In this document: in pieces, positions 50,250 through 56,449 of the stretch
Layout: the number at the start of each line of letters is the position of its first letter
Position numbering within the stretch: position 1 is the first letter of the stretch
Assembly (NCBI RefSeq): GCF_003858635.1
Contig: NZ_RQJO01000008.1
Location: 1,674,001-1,738,000, forward strand
Origin: Larkinella rosea
GTDB lineage: Bacteria; Bacteroidota; Bacteroidia; Cytophagales; Spirosomataceae
DNA: 64,000 nucleotides
Direction: 5' to 3'
Notes under the pieces: model-generated
What the model saw: the letters and a program-made list of their open reading frames with translations, nothing else
Databases searched by the model: none
What the model was told of the DNA's origin: nothing
Made by a program: the position numbers and the translations under genes

Positions 50250-52151
50250 ATGATTGAAAGACCCCTGACCGACTGGTTGCCGCTGACGATGAAAGAAGTC
50301 GAGAAACGCGGCTGGGATGAAGTAGATATTGTGCTGGTGTCAGGGGATGCGTACGTCGATCACCCGGCGTTTGGAACCGCCGTGATTGGCCGGATTATGG
50401 AAAGTGAGGGATTCCGTGTCGCCATCATTGCTCAGCCCAACTGGAAAGATGATCTGAGGGATTTCAGGAAATTTGGCAAACCGAAGTATTTCTTCGGCGT
50501 CACGGCCGGTTGTATGGATTCGATGGTGAATCATTACACCGCCAACAAACGCCTGCGTTCCAACGACTCCTACACCCCCGGTGGCGAAGCCGGTTTTCGT
50601 CCCGATTACGCGACGATTGTCTATACCAAAATCCTGAAAGAATTATTTCCCGATGTGCCGGTTTTGCTCGGTGGCATCGAAGCTTCGCTGCGCCGGGTGA
50701 CGCACTACGACTACTGGCAGGACAAACTGATGCCGTCGATTCTGGTGGATGCCGGGGCCGATATGCTGGTGTACGGCATGGGCGAACAACCGCTGCGCGA
50801 AATCCTGAAACTGGCGCGGCAGGGCGTACCGTTCTCGTCGATGCGGAATATCAACCAGGTGGCTTTTCTACACGACGGCGACACCGAACTGCAGGAGTAT
50901 AACAACTGGAGCACCGTCGAGCTGGCGAGCCATGAGGTTTGTCTGGAGGATAAAATCAAGTACGCGGCCAACTTCAAAATTGTTGAGGTGGAGTCGAATA
51001 AGTGGCAAGCCAACCGGATTACGCAGCAGGTGGGCAACCAGATTCTGGTGATCAATCCGCCGTTCAAGACGATGGAAGAAGCCGAAATCGACAAGTCGTT
51101 CGATTTGCCGTATACGCGGATGCCGCACCCGAAATACAAAAAACGCGGCCCGATTCCGGCTTACGACATGATCAAATTTTCGGTCAACATGCACCGGGGT
51201 TGTTTCGGCGGTTGTAGTTTTTGCACGATTTCGGCGCATCAGGGCAAGTTTATTGCGTCGCGGAGCGAAACGTCGGTGCTGAAAGAAGTCGAGGAAATCA
51301 CGAAGCACCCGGAGTTCAAGGGCTACATTTCGGATCTGGGCGGACCATCGGCCAATATGTACAAGATGAAAGGCAAGGACGAAGCGATCTGCGCCCGCTG
51401 CCAGAGTCCGAGTTGCATTCATCCGGTGATTTGCTCGAACCTCGATACGTCGCACAAACCGATGACGGAGTTATACCGCAAGGTCGACGCCAATCCGGCC
51501 ATCAAAAAGGCGTTTGTCGGCTCGGGCGTGCGGTACGATCTGCTGGTCGATGACTTCAACAAAAACAACCAGGACGGCAACCACGACGAATACATGGAGC
51601 AACTCGTCACCCGGCACGTCTCGGGCCGGTTGAAAGTGGCCCCCGAACATACGTCGGACGATACGCTGCGGGTGATGCGGAAACCGTCGTTCAAATATTT
51701 TAAACTCTTCAAGCAGAAGTACGACAAGATTCAGGAGAAATACGGCCTGAAACAACCGCTGATTCCGTACTTCATTTCGTCGCACCCCGGTTGCGAGGAG
51801 CAGGATATGGCCAATCTGGCGGCTGAAACGAAGGACCTGGGCTTCCAGCTCGAGCAGGTGCAGGATTTTACACCCACACCGATGACGGTGGCCGAAGTGA
51901 TTTACTATTCAGGGGTTCACCCGTATACGCTGAAACCGGTCAAAACCGCCAAAACCCGGGAAGAAAAGAAGACTCAGAACAACTATTTTTTCTGGTACAA
52001 ACCTGAATACAAAAACTGGATTCGCGATCGCCTGACCAAGCTCAATCGGCCGGATTTGCTGGAACGACTGCTGGGAAGTGCCAAGAAAGAAAATACCGGC
52101 AAGTACACGGGAAATTACAACGGCCGGAAAAAAGCAACGAAGAAGTTTTAA
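50250..52151 (+). CDS. YgiQ family radical SAM protein
   Basis: A 633-residue protein of the UPF0313/YgiQ group. The N-terminal domain ('VSGDAYVDHPAFGTAVIGRI', 'GVTAGCMDSMVNHYTANKRL') resembles a cobalamin-type fold. The radical SAM cluster site is C318-F-G-G-C322-S-F-C325 followed by 'TISAHQGKFIASRS'. The segment with 'CARCQSPSCIHPVIC' adds further cysteines. The Lys-rich tail suggests contact with nucleic acid. The reaction is unknown. A strong terminator follows. Confidence 0.92.
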   Translation: MIERPLTDWLPLTMKEVEKRGWDEVDIVLVSGDAYVDHPAFGTAVIGRIMESEGFRVAIIAQPNWKDDLRDFRKFGKPKYFFGVTAGCMDSMVNHYTANKRLRSNDSYTPGGEAGFRPDYATIVYTKILKELFPDVPVLLGGIEASLRRVTHYDYWQDKLMPSILVDAGADMLVYGMGEQPLREILKLARQGVPFSSMRNINQVAFLHDGDTELQEYNNWSTVELASHEVCLEDKIKYAANFKIVEVESNKWQANRITQQVGNQILVINPPFKTMEEAEIDKSFDLPYTRMPHPKYKKRGPIPAYDMIKFSVNMHRGCFGGCSFCTISAHQGKFIASRSETSVLKEVEEITKHPEFKGYISDLGGPSANMYKMKGKDEAICARCQSPSCIHPVICSNLDTSHKPMTELYRKVDANPAIKKAFVGSGVRYDLLVDDFNKNNQDGNHDEYMEQLVTRHVSGRLKVAPEHTSDDTLRVMRKPSFKYFKLFKQKYDKIQEKYGLKQPLIPYFISSHPGCEEQDMANLAAETKDLGFQLEQVQDFTPTPMTVAEVIYYSGVHPYTLKPVKTAKTREEKKTQNNYFFWYKPEYKNWIRDRLTKLNRPDLLERLLGSAKKENTGKYTGNYNGRKKATKKF

Positions 52152-52167
52152 CGTTTGATCTTCCTAC

Positions 52168-52212
52168 AAAAAAAGTCCCGGACGGTTTTAAAAACCATCC
52201 GGGACTTTTTTA
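52168..52212. terminator. Bidirectional rho-independent terminator
   Basis: AAAAAAGTCCCGGACGGTTT pairs with its near-complement, leaving T-runs on both strands. It serves both the YgiQ gene and icd, which converge here. Confidence 0.93.
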
Positions 52213-52226
52213 TTCAAGGCTGAGAA

Positions 52227-53447
52227 TTAACCCAGTTTCACTTTCAGGTTCTGATCCAGTGCTTCCAGGAAATCTTCGGTGTTGAGGTAATGCTCACCAG
52301 CCACCAGTTTGGTACCAGCCGGGAACGCCGACAAGGCCAGATCCTTCGTCATTTTGCCGCTTTCCACGGTTTCGATACAAACCGCTTCCAGCGCGTTGGA
52401 GAAGTCGATCAGTGGCTGGTTGCCGTCCAGTTTGCCCCGGAACGCCAGACCACGCGTCCAGGCGAAAATCGACGCTATCGGGTTGGTCGACGTTGGACGC
52501 CCTTTCTGGTGTTCACGGTAGTGGCGCGTAACAGTTCCGTGAGCCGCTTCGGCTTCCATCGTTTTGCCGTCGGGCGTAACGAGTACGGACGTCATCAAAC
52601 CGAGTGAACCAAAGCCCTGGGCAACGGTATCCGACTGAACGTCACCGTCGTAGTTTTTACACGCCCAGACAAAGTTGCCTTCCCATTTCAGGGCCGAAGC
52701 CACCATGTCATCGATCAGGCGGTGTTCGTAGTGAACGCCTTTTTCTTTGAATTCGGCTTCGTAAATTTCCTGGAAAATATCCTTGAAACGACCGTCGTAT
52801 TTCTTTAGAATCGTGTTTTTGGTCGAGAGGTACAACGGCCACTTTTTCTGCAACGCCATGTTGAAACACGCGTGCGCAAAACCACGGATGGATTCGTCGA
52901 CGTTGTACATGCCCATGGCAACGCCCGGTCCCTGGAAGTTATATACTTCGTATTCCTGCACGGTTCCGTCTTCGCCTTCGAACTTCATCGTCAGCTTGCC
53001 TTTGCCCGGCACGATGAAATCCGTGGCGCGGTATTGGTCACCGAACGCGTGCCGACCGACGATGATCGGGGCCGACCAGTTGGTTACCAGACGCGGAACA
53101 TTATTGATGACAATCGGCTCGCGGAAAACCGTACCGTCCAGAATGTTCCGGATGGTGCCGTTTGGCGATTTCCACATTTGTTTCAGATTGAATTCTTTGA
53201 CGCGGTCTTCGTCCGGCGTGATGGTGGCGCATTTGATTCCGACACCGTATTCTTTGATGGCATTGGCGGCATCGATCGTCACCTGGTCGTTAGTCTCATC
53301 GCGGTATTCAACGCCCAAATCGTAGTATTTGATGTCAACGTCGATGTACGGCAGAATGAGTTTGTCTTTGATAAACTTCCAGATAATTCGGGTCATTTCG
53401 TCACCATCCAGTTCGACAACCGGATTTGCCACTTTAATTTTCTCCAT
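52227..53447 (-). CDS. icd: NADP-dependent isocitrate dehydrogenase
   Basis: A 406-residue enzyme of the eukaryote-like (subfamily II) type: '[20 protein letters not shown]', '[20 protein letters not shown]', '[19 protein letters not shown]', and '[20 protein letters not shown]' with the Mg-binding Asp residues, then '[20 protein letters not shown]' for NADP binding. It makes 2-oxoglutarate and NADPH in the TCA cycle. Its probable promoter lies in a 41-bp sequence that is repeated on the far side of the adjacent toxin-antitoxin module. Confidence 0.97.
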
Positions 53448-53486
53448 TGGTTTATATCAATCAAGTGAAACGTTACAGGAAATCAG

Positions 53487-53527
53487 CCGCAAAGGTAACA
53501 ATTCTGGGCGTAACGGGAAACGAAAGC
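53487..53527. repeat. 41-bp direct repeat, copy 1 (icd side)
   Basis: Starts CCGCAAAGGTAACAATTCTG and ends GAAACGAAAGC; identical over all 41 bases to 54212-54252. On the minus strand it contains TACCTTTG, a -7 box placed about 43 bases before the icd start codon. It is therefore both the icd promoter region and one boundary of the toxin-antitoxin cassette. Confidence 0.95.
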
Positions 53528-53572
53528 CAATGAATCAAATGGAGCTGGGGGATTCGACGAAAGAAATAGAAA

Positions 53573-53959
53573 TTACCAAAGCCACCGAACGGGATATTTG
53601 GAAATATTGCTGTCTTTTGAAATGAATGTCATCCCTTCAACAATGCACTGTGCAATCAATAATCGATCAAATGGATCGCGATGGTGCATTTCCAACGTCA
53701 GGAGTGTCTGGGTGCGCTGGAAAGTAATCGGTAATAATTCAAAACCGTTCTGGTCGATCAGAGTAAGCAAGTTGTCGTAACCCGGTTTGAAAGTAAGTGT
53801 GCCGAGTTTCATTTTGATTGCCATCTCCCATAAACTTACGACGCTTACAAATGAACTATTCTCGCTATTTTCAATTTCCGTTCGGGCTGGGATAGATAAG
53901 TCTTTTTTGTTGCCATTGAGAAACCAAATGAGCGTGTGCGTATCCAGAAGTAAATCCAT
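53573..53959 (-). CDS. PIN-domain toxin (VapC-like)
   Basis: A 128-residue PIN ribonuclease: first acidic site D6 in 'MDLLLDTHTLIWFLNG', Glu in 'VSVVSLWEMAIKMKLG', and the distal Asp pair in 'HHRDPFDRLLIAQCIVEGM', then 'FISKDSNISKYPV'. The set is complete, so it should be active. It belongs to the type II toxin group in which the toxin cleaves RNA and is neutralised by the protein encoded just upstream. Start and antitoxin stop overlap by one base (TAATG). Confidence 0.92.
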   Translation of the reverse strand: MDLLLDTHTLIWFLNGNKKDLSIPARTEIENSENSSFVSVVSLWEMAIKMKLGTLTFKPGYDNLLTLIDQNGFELLPITFQRTQTLLTLEMHHRDPFDRLLIAQCIVEGMTFISKDSNISKYPVRWLW

Positions 53960-54165
53960 TACATATAATCGGCGAAGTCGTCCAGCGGTTTGTCAAACTC
54001 CGGTGAGATTTCGAATTGACCCGTCGCGCTGCCAAAAACCGGCCGTTTCTTTGGCTGGTCAGCTTTCTGCTGCTTTGCTTTCAGGAAATCAATAAAATCT
54101 TCAACCTCAGCCTGATAGGGAGCAGGGAGCGTCTGTAATTTTTTATAGAATTGCAGATACGTCAT
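53959..54165 (-). CDS. DUF2281-type antitoxin
   Basis: A 68-residue protein: 'FYKKLQTLPAPYQAEVEDFI' then 'DFLKAKQQ' is the DUF2281 helix pattern of VapB-like antitoxins, and the C-terminal half ('FGSATGQFEISPEFDKPLDD', 'FADYM') is the toxin-wrapping tail. It is translationally coupled to the toxin and preceded, 47 bases upstream, by the second copy of the 41-bp repeat, which supplies a TACCTTTG -7 box. Confidence 0.88.
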   Translation of the reverse strand: MTYLQFYKKLQTLPAPYQAEVEDFIDFLKAKQQKADQPKKRPVFGSATGQFEISPEFDKPLDDFADYM

Positions 54166-54211
54166 GGCTGAGTTTTCTGTTCAGATCGATTGAATTGCTG
54201 CCAGCGAACAC

Positions 54212-54252
54212 CCGCAAAGGTAACAATTCTGGGCGTAACGGGAAACGAAAGC
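54212..54252. repeat. 41-bp direct repeat, copy 2 (antitoxin side)
   Basis: Identical to 53487-53527, offset 725 bp. The TACCTTTG box on the minus strand would drive the antitoxin-toxin pair. Between the copies lie only the two toxin-antitoxin genes. Sequence homology stops sharply at both ends of the 41 bases. Confidence 0.95.
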
Positions 54253-54376
54253 GGAGGATTAGAATGGAAACGGAGGTTCGTTGGAATGGAGGCTGCTACA
54301 TCACTTCATGAATTACGCGAATTGTGCCCAACGGGTTATCATCAACGTATTTTTTACTGATTAAAAAGATAAACCG

Positions 54377-55627
54377 TCAACTTGTCCATTGGGGTGGGTT
54401 CGGGCGTTTAAGCCCGGTTTTCTTTACCTGCATTGCTACCCACCAGAACAGGCTGGCCGAAACCGCACAAAGCCCCATGACCAGGAGCCAGAGCATCGGA
54501 AAACCAGCCCCGGCCACCACCTGCGAGCCAATGGCCGGGGCCGTAATCTGGGCGACGGCGTACGCCATGGAATACAACGCCAAATATTGCCCCCGGTTTT
54601 GGGAAGTAGCTCGTTCCACGGTGAACGACTGCATGAAGGGCATCGCCAGCATTTCGCCGAAGGTGTTGATAAAAACCGAAATAACCGCTAAAAATGGCCA
54701 AAACCCAGCATTCAACAGCAAATACGATAAGCCGACCAGCAATGCGCCAAAAGCGATAATGATCCCTTTCAGCCGGGCATACCGTTTTTCGACGGCGTAC
54801 ACCAGCGCCATCTCGGTGAACACAATCATCAGGCCGTTCATCGTCATCAGCAATCCAATTTCCGTTTCTTTCAGGTGTAAAACCTGCTTGAAATAGAGCG
54901 GAGCCATGCTGAACAACTGCCAGAAGCCAATGGCAAACAGAATGGTGGCCCCCACGAAAATCAGAAATAACCGGTCGCGGTAGGCCGACGAGCTTCCTTC
55001 AGCGGGCCGTTCGGTTTCGTTGGTTGCCGCCACGGATCGATCGGGAACCGGTAAGTACGCCCGCAACACGCCCGCAGCCACGATGCAGGTCAGGCCGTCG
55101 ACCCAGAACAAAAGCCGGTAATCGATGCCCGCCAGGTAGCCGCCCAAACCGCCCCCGAGCGACCAGCCGAGGTTGATCGCCAGCCGGTTGAGCGAGTAGG
55201 CGCGGGTGCGGTTTTCGGGGACGCTGTAATACGCAATGGCCGACGACACCGCCGGGCGAAAGGCATCGCCCAGCAGCGTGTAGACGAACACCACGCCACA
55301 CATCGTGTAAAAGTTGTGCGCGAACTGTAAGAATATCAGGAAGAAACCGGAAATCAGCAGGCTGAAAAACTGGATGGGGTAGAACCCGAACTGGTCGGAA
55401 AGCCGCCCGCCCAGAAACGTGCCAACCAGCGCGCCAGCCCCGTAAACCGCCATCACCATACCGGCTTCCGTGACGCTGTAATGCAGGTGCTGCGTCAGGT
55501 AGAGCGTCAGATACGGCAGCACCATCGTACCGGAGCGGTTGATGAGCATGACTCCACCCAGCAACCACACCGGCGCGGGCAAGCCCCGGTACGCATCCCG
55601 ATACAAACGCAAACTACGGCCAATCAT
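54377..55627 (-). CDS. MFS transporter
   Basis: A 416-residue protein with twelve predicted helices. The loop 2-3 signature is 'GTFLGGRLSDQFGFYPIQ' (GxLxDrxGrr-like) and a loop-4 region 'SVPENRTRAYSLNRLAINLG' is typical of the drug/sugar efflux group. A hydrophilic loop (about residues 195-215) separates the two halves. The substrate is unknown; no regulator or pathway gene is adjacent. The C-terminus is Pro-rich and probably cytoplasmic. Confidence 0.88.
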   Translation of the reverse strand: MIGRSLRLYRDAYRGLPAPVWLLGGVMLINRSGTMVLPYLTLYLTQHLHYSVTEAGMVMAVYGAGALVGTFLGGRLSDQFGFYPIQFFSLLISGFFLIFLQFAHNFYTMCGVVFVYTLLGDAFRPAVSSAIAYYSVPENRTRAYSLNRLAINLGWSLGGGLGGYLAGIDYRLLFWVDGLTCIVAAGVLRAYLPVPDRSVAATNETERPAEGSSSAYRDRLFLIFVGATILFAIGFWQLFSMAPLYFKQVLHLKETEIGLLMTMNGLMIVFTEMALVYAVEKRYARLKGIIIAFGALLVGLSYLLLNAGFWPFLAVISVFINTFGEMLAMPFMQSFTVERATSQNRGQYLALYSMAYAVAQITAPAIGSQVVAGAGFPMLWLLVMGLCAVSASLFWWVAMQVKKTGLKRPNPPQWTS

Positions 55628-55687
55628 GACCGCAAAGGTCAGCGGTTGGCAGGGAATAAAAAAGAAGGATTGCGTATACGGCCGCGA

Positions 55688-56326
55688 TTATTTCTTCGCC
55701 AGTTCCTGCAGGCGAATGTTCCGCCAGCGGACTTCCATGGGGCGCTGCACTTTGGTGCCGTGAACCTGCAGGGCGATAAAACCGCTCGTGGCCAGCGTAT
55801 CGGTGTAGTCGGTGGTTTGGACGCCGTTCAGGAAGATCTTCACCTTTTTGCCCATTGCTTCGATCCGGTATTTGTTCCAGTCGAATTTTTTGAAGGCTTT
55901 TTGTCCCGTTGGGTTGTTTTTCAGATCGACCAGCCAGCCGCGCCGGGCTTCGTCGTATAAACCGCCACTCCAGGCACGGGCCGCCGGGTCGATCTCGGCC
56001 TGGTAGCCGTGAACACGGCCGTTTTTGAAATCGGGGCGGCTTTCACTCCGAAACTGAATACCGGAATTCATGCCCGTATCGACTTTTACTTCCAGTTCCA
56101 GAATAAAATCGTCGTAATTTTTGTCGGTGCACAGGAAGGTATTCTGGGAACCGGGTTTCGAAATGCCGACCACTTCGCCGTTCTCGACGCGGTAGTCGTT
56201 TTTAACCTGCTCCCCGCGAATCGTCCAGCCGGTGAAGTCTTTCCCGTTGAAGAGTTTGACCCATTTTTCTTTCTGGAATGAGCAGAGAATGAGGGGGATG
56301 GAGAACGCGATGAGGAGTTTTTTCAT
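55688..56326 (-). CDS. DUF1080 (3-keto-disaccharide hydrolase family) protein
   Basis: A 212-residue exported protein with signal sequence/lipobox-like 'FSIPLILCSF' (Cys about 15). The concanavalin-like domain shows 'WVKLFNGKDFTGWTIRG', 'YDDFILELEVKVDTGMNSGI', 'QFRSESRPDFKNGRVHGYQA', 'GGLYDEARRGWL' and 'FDWNKYRIEAMGKKVKIFLN'. Members have been shown to cleave 3-keto-glycosides. With the GMC/subunit 3 pair at 0.6-3 kb the genome encodes both steps of a 3-keto-glycoside route; the link here is inference from families. Confidence 0.9.
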   Translation of the reverse strand: MKKLLIAFSIPLILCSFQKEKWVKLFNGKDFTGWTIRGEQVKNDYRVENGEVVGISKPGSQNTFLCTDKNYDDFILELEVKVDTGMNSGIQFRSESRPDFKNGRVHGYQAEIDPAARAWSGGLYDEARRGWLVDLKNNPTGQKAFKKFDWNKYRIEAMGKKVKIFLNGVQTTDYTDTLATSGFIALQVHGTKVQRPMEVRWRNIRLQELAKK

Positions 56327-56343
56327 GAGTTTAAAAAGAATTG

Positions 56344-56436
56344 TTTCGCAGAGTTTAGCGGAGTAAGATAGAGTTACGCGGAGAAAATGATAATAAACTC
56401 CGCTTAACTCCCTTTACTCTGCTAAACTCTGCGAAA
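56344..56436. repeat. Inverted repeat with ~10-bp internal step
   Basis: Arms 56344-56383 and 56398-56436 pair at about 34 of 39 positions. The internal words AGAGTTTAGC, GGAGTAAGAT and AGAGTTACGC recur every 10 bases. It fills most of the gap between two minus-strand genes. Confidence 0.8.
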
Positions 56437-56449
56437 TAGCTCTTTCTAC

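Follow-up and report, generated by a model that had tools for sequence, protein, structure and literature searches.

A DUF2281-PIN toxin-antitoxin pair at the Larkinella icd promoter: a case for insertion with duplication of the host promoter

How chromosomal toxin-antitoxin pairs enter a genome and become expressed without a mobile element is a long-standing question. It is raised again by a 64,000-nucleotide stretch of DNA from Larkinella (Cytophagales), referred to here as the window, in which a two-gene pair lies upstream of icd between two identical 41-base sequences. There is a good case that this locus is a toxin-antitoxin insertion with duplication of the host promoter, and relatives support it. 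The promoter appears to be supplied by the act of insertion, which leaves the target gene whole. The duplicated ends would delimit the inserted unit, and the question thereby becomes testable by genome comparison and by a search for an excised form.

The pair and its two promoter copies

The features of the locus are collected in Table 1. On the minus strand, the order of transcription is repeat copy, antitoxin, toxin, repeat copy, and icd, and the antitoxin gene overlaps the downstream toxin gene by one base. The PIN match of the toxin has an E-value of 6e-14 (cut-off 23.6 bits), and no NCBIfam match was found for this protein. The antitoxin matches PF10047 with an E-value of 9e-16 and the VapB equivalog NF050009 above its cut-off of 60 bits. 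With both families matched, the pair is predicted from its sequence to be a VapBC-type type II toxin-antitoxin module. Neither protein has a sequence match among solved structures. The 41 identical bases and the complete DUF2281/PIN pair between them, both reported in a preliminary description of this DNA, have been confirmed by direct comparison and by the PF10047 and PF01850 matches, respectively.

Table 1. Positions of the features in the window
Feature	Position	Strand	Remarks
icd, NADP-dependent isocitrate dehydrogenase	52227..53447	-	NF006156, 736 bits; owner of the duplicated promoter
Longer imperfect repeat, icd side	53460..53543		79% identity to 54185-54268; local alignment 61/73
Repeat copy, icd side	53487..53527	-	identical to 54212-54252; TACCTTTG -7 box at 53490-53497
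Spacer, 45 nt, toxin stop to icd-side repeat	53528..53572		by-eye alignment with G006, G002, and G007 spacers
Toxin, PIN-domain (VapC-like), 128 aa	53573..53959	-	PF01850, 53.1 bits
Antitoxin, DUF2281/VapB family, 68 aa	53959..54165	-	PF10047, 58.7 bits; NF050009, 82.9 bits
Longer imperfect repeat, antitoxin side	54185..54268		surrounds the antitoxin-side 41-mer
Repeat copy, antitoxin side	54212..54252	-	TACCTTTG at 54215-54222
Rearrangement junction	54253..54415		~16 nt repeat continuation, further sequence, MFS block

The perfect 41-mer is the core of a longer imperfect repeat of ~72–84 bases (84 nt ungapped at 79%). The 84-base repeat occurs in only two places in its own genome, the next best match having an E-value of 0.17, and the concern that the 41-mer is a common dispersed repeat has been settled by this search. 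The module DNA gave one match in the DNA-level search. The region 52000-56000 contains 8 inverted-repeat pairs, none of which encloses the module. Also, none of the four proteins tested (toxin, antitoxin, icd product, and MFS transporter) matches a transposase or integrase family, so that the earlier statement that such genes are absent holds for these proteins.

Several kinds of element have been considered and rejected. A dispersed repeat or transposon end was ruled out by the lack of a bracketing inverted pair and by the two genome copies, and an IS element, transposon, or MITE by the lack of end inverted repeats, the lack of a transposase match among the four proteins, and again the two repeat copies. 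A restriction-modification system as the inserted unit was ruled out since only PIN and DUF2281 genes are present. A phage origin was rejected with no toxin match among phage records. Plasmid records holding relatives number 443, all below 60% identity.

The sequence TAnnTTTG is the Bacteroidetes -7 box. As described earlier, each repeat copy carries TACCTTTG on the minus strand, and the distance to the start codon is 42 nt for icd and 49 nt for the antitoxin. Of 24 icd loci (window included; nine are Larkinella), 22 have TAnnTTTG in the 150 nt upstream of icd, compared with 2.0 expected from base shuffles. Across the window, 34 sites are found and 31.5 expected, and the pattern alone is not enriched. 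Therefore, the support rests on its conserved place upstream of icd. A sigma-70 scan gave three sites compared with 1.8 expected. Judged by sequence, both repeat copies are likely active promoters. No terminator-like site separates the toxin stop from icd, and transcripts of the module could therefore read through into icd.

The icd locus in nine Larkinella genomes

The icd start and repeat region was used to search the full sequences of nine Larkinella genomes, and was found in two places in two genomes and in one place in seven. Both genes and two copies are present in the window genome and in G006 (L. knui), where the repeat spans ~60 bases and the toxin gene carries a frameshift; the second copy is restricted to these two. 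Four genomes have one copy and no module: G001, G003, G005, and the diverged G008, whose copy differs at 13 of 41 positions. The antitoxin alone with one copy is found in G002 and G007, and G004 has a truncated copy of about the first 27 bases. The preliminary description had pointed to an empty site with a single copy in close relatives as one comparison to make, and to module-free relatives with two copies already in place as the contrary outcome. The empty site is what the four genomes show, and the module-free relatives are single-copy.

In G002 and G007 just the end of the toxin gene is left, and the deletion junctions look alike by eye. In the icd tree, G003, which has no module, is sister to G002 with a support of 97/96, and the two form a clade with G007 and G006 (99/99). 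L. humicola, with one copy and no module, is nested inside this module-bearing clade. Support is only 81/91 for the fork at which the L. knui clade is joined by the window genome and G004. The simplest history is one gain and at least two losses. Given one gain, the clean single copy of G003 may be the result of reversion or of replacement by an empty allele. The preliminary description had also proposed that recombination between the copies would remove the module exactly. This has not been borne out, since G002 and G007 keep the antitoxin and have no second copy; simple exchange between the repeats is therefore not the obvious route of module loss. The antitoxin frames at loci L032 and L037 (reverse complement) are still open despite the toxin deletion and with no second promoter copy.

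Within a genome the two copies differ at 0 of 41 positions (window) or 1 of 41 (G006), while between these genomes 5 or 6 of the 41 bases differ. By comparison, the icd genes of the two genomes differ by 8.5% and the modules by about 20%. Given one insertion, copies that are alike within a genome and unlike between genomes require some exchange between copies. Five of the inter-genome differences fall within 8 bases and could reflect one event, which makes the case for later exchange keeping the two copies alike a modest one. In a comparison with L004/L034, window positions 53300-53513 (icd 5' end and promoter) are 99% identical to G004 and the whole icd 92%, which looks like a recent local exchange.

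The gene on the far side of the module from icd is an MFS transporter by family profile search. The MFS block (from about 54415; 54440 in two) does not adjoin icd in any of the eight other genus genomes, a point missed in the preliminary description. The MFS part is found elsewhere in seven of the eight; in G005 only the post-MFS part was matched, also elsewhere. The upstream neighbours of the block have been examined in five genomes. A different gene, which we take to be M20-peptidase-like, follows icd or the module in G002, G003, G006, and G007. Since the MFS block is not next to icd in the relatives, the window genome has been rearranged within ~160 bases of the repeat, and the right edge of the module is also a rearrangement junction. 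By eye, the sequence past the 54212 copy is closer to the toxin-side spacer of G006 than is the right flank of G006; a past tandem copy of the module might account for this. Further to the right, at 56329-56440, there is a palindromic repeat with GTTTCGCAGAGTTT arms at 56343 and 56424, and dozens of places like it are found across the genus genomes. One place with a 20-base match was found in Mucilaginibacter.

Flanking repeats at other DUF2281 loci

In related modules of the order, like insertions are seen at other targets with other repeats. DUF2281 matches were collected from 150 genomes of the family (54 with matches) and 390 genomes of the order (59 with matches), giving 126 distinct places in 91 genomes after removal of doubly found places. 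At each, the 200 bases upstream were compared with the 650 bases downstream for a direct repeat with a score of at least 16, a threshold set after the first loci were known. Flanking direct repeats were found at 12 of the 126 loci, none of them inside one reading frame, and 114 loci have none. Displaced controls gave 4 of 260, or 1 of 260 once repeats inside one reading frame were dropped (Fisher P = 9.5e-6 against the filtered and 4.9e-4 against the unfiltered controls); these controls are mostly not recently inserted genes, so the comparison does not single out toxin-antitoxin pairs among insertions. Leaving out the Larkinella pair gives a P-value of 7.6e-5, and leaving out the five loci that prompted the idea gives 1.7e-3.

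Other comparisons have been made. A first pass on the family matches gave 7/71 compared with 2/668. Cross-locus pairs show a repeat in 8 of 5040 cases, of which four are Larkinella orthologues and one is two modules at the same ccm site. A looser control gave 13/126 against 5/143 placements (P = 0.029), and 34 of 1208 placements also passed in an overlapping-placement control. By sequence, most of the matches in these last two controls look like within-gene repeats, a reading confirmed for 3 of the 4 in 260. Nine further DUF2281 loci of the genus (L082 shared with the 126) have no repeat with a score of at least 11.

The repeats range from 20 to 132 bases and their sequences are unrelated between targets; they thus look like copies of the target rather than element ends. 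Clear copies of a neighbour are found in six cases, with L085/L086 counted once and L111/L135 counted once. The L094 repeat is 20 bases long and lies where ccmD and ccmE overlap at ATGA, the antitoxin taking the start position and ccmE retaining one. In another genus, the module at L097 occupies the same ccm place with no clear second copy. The L096 repeat is 48 bases long, running from the end of an AIRS gene into the start of a hydantoinase gene, and the hydantoinase frame is open after the second copy through to the end of the locus. A hydantoinase start without a module was found in 3 of 58 other genomes searched, and the different setting makes this weak support.

At L183, ~130 bases are repeated upstream of the antitoxin and of the next gene, which has no Pfam match, with a TATATTTG box in each copy; part of this repeat recurs elsewhere in the same genome. 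Two homologues of the next gene are present in G225; both have a single promoter-like stretch and neither has a module, and this support is also weak. In G264, an intergenic repeat of up to 80 bp lies before a 361-aa gene (L251 1501-1580) and also before and after the toxin-antitoxin pair, the L183 copies being at about 1354-1416 and 2135-2198. It is as if neighbouring genes had also been inserted with duplications.

Among the remaining loci, the L150 repeat is a 49-base piece from the 3' end of a FAN1/VRR-NUC gene. L135 and L111 repeat the 5' end of an AAA_15-type gene (by Pfam and by eye, respectively) and may be one event. The repeat at L226 is a hairpin followed by a T run, those at L224 and L188 are weak, and that at L221 looks dispersed. 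Measured from the candidate stop ending the toxin frame, the downstream copy starts at -1, 0, 0, 2, 8, and 14 nt at six of ten loci and at 45 to 186 nt at the other four; L135 and L221, in which the toxin is shortened or missing, were left out.

Proposed mechanism, alternatives, and known systems

Entry of the module into the icd promoter probably duplicated a long stretch of the target, leaving icd and the antitoxin each with its own copy. A minimal DUF2281-PIN module would have inserted into the icd promoter in the ancestor of six Larkinella species, duplicating about 70 target bases, including the promoter. One copy would then drive icd and the other the antitoxin and toxin; the newcomer would need no promoter of its own and icd would lose nothing. 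We infer that the duplication and the insertion were one event. As expected of a long target duplication, relatives have single-copy empty sites (the nested G003 perhaps by reversion) and the repeat has the sequence of the local target. Duplication of the icd promoter at the arrival of the module, suggested in the preliminary description, is supported as the best reading, with similar duplications at unrelated targets. More tentatively, and with somewhat less than an even chance in our judgment, DUF2281-PIN pairs may be minimal self-spreading units that need no transposase and duplicate 20 to 130 target bases. Duplication of a promoter or start would give immediate expression with the host gene intact, and recombination between the repeats would homogenise them and allow the unit to be lost.

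Other readings have been weighed against insertion with duplication. The module could have been inserted twice at the same promoter, in the window lineage and in the L. knui clade, each time copying the local repeat, which is compatible with the duplication mechanism itself. Copies that differ at 0 or 1 of 41 positions within a genome and at 5 or 6 between genomes would fit such a history, as would the 81/91 support of the single-origin clade. However, all four module-bearing genomes have C as the last base of the repeat where the three comparable empty sites have T, the toxin-side spacers align by eye, and one copy exchange suffices if the 5 differences in 8 bases are one event, so that two insertions seem unlikely. 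We are more doubtful that replication slippage or unequal exchange first duplicated the icd promoter in tandem and that the module then happened to insert between the two copies. The 41-mer core is far better matched between the copies than its flanks, and the order of events is not preserved in any relative, but two copies without both module genes occur in none of the nine genomes, and flanking repeats recur at unrelated targets of the same module family.

The direct repeats at both ends of a defined module could also be attachment sites of a recombinase acting from elsewhere, no recombinase family having been matched by the four proteins tested. This is very improbable for a site-specific cassette whose repeats vary in sequence and length with the target (20 to 132 bases) and share no core between targets, and whose icd repeat has just two copies in the genome. 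An integron or site-specific cassette was also rejected as a candidate class, no common recombination site being found among repeats that differ between targets. An assembly error or a trivial chance repeat is hardly credible. The right-side junction is found in none of eight relatives, but G006, a separate assembly, has the same order of icd, repeat, module, and repeat, followed by the gene that follows icd in G003, and a 41-base identity in 64 kb is far beyond chance.

Insertion with long, variable target duplications of the order of 100 bp has been described for some restriction-modification systems (Nobusato et al. 2000; Furuta et al. 2010, cited in a 2013 review, PMC3874152), and the review links their movement to rearrangements. 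The Larkinella locus is similar in that a small addiction module with no known mobile element has a long, variable direct duplication. It differs in its unit, a toxin-antitoxin pair of two genes, and in a duplicated target that takes in a host promoter or start region. For small toxin-antitoxin pairs, no report of such an insertion, or of one duplicating a host promoter, was found among the matches listed, which cover titles and abstract openings and lie mostly outside subscription papers. The authors of another study suggest that addiction-aided movement could also apply to toxin-antitoxin systems (PMC3031569). The movement described there is mostly with an IS copy, and none was found at the Larkinella module.

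Two other pairs can be compared. Synechocystis sll0205/ssl0385 combines a PIN toxin with a DUF2281 antitoxin in the same antitoxin-toxin order as in Larkinella, but the part of the paper on this pair mentions no flanking duplication (PMC4963859). A ParDE-like pair next to MaOC1 in Microcystis is, like the Larkinella module, flanked by identical direct repeats, in this case of 152 bp (Klemencic et al. 2021, PMC7935541). In the section on these repeats they are not described as copies of a neighbouring promoter. They differ from the Larkinella repeats in containing inverted repeats and in their distances of 147 and 120 bp from the genes, and the proteins belong to other families.
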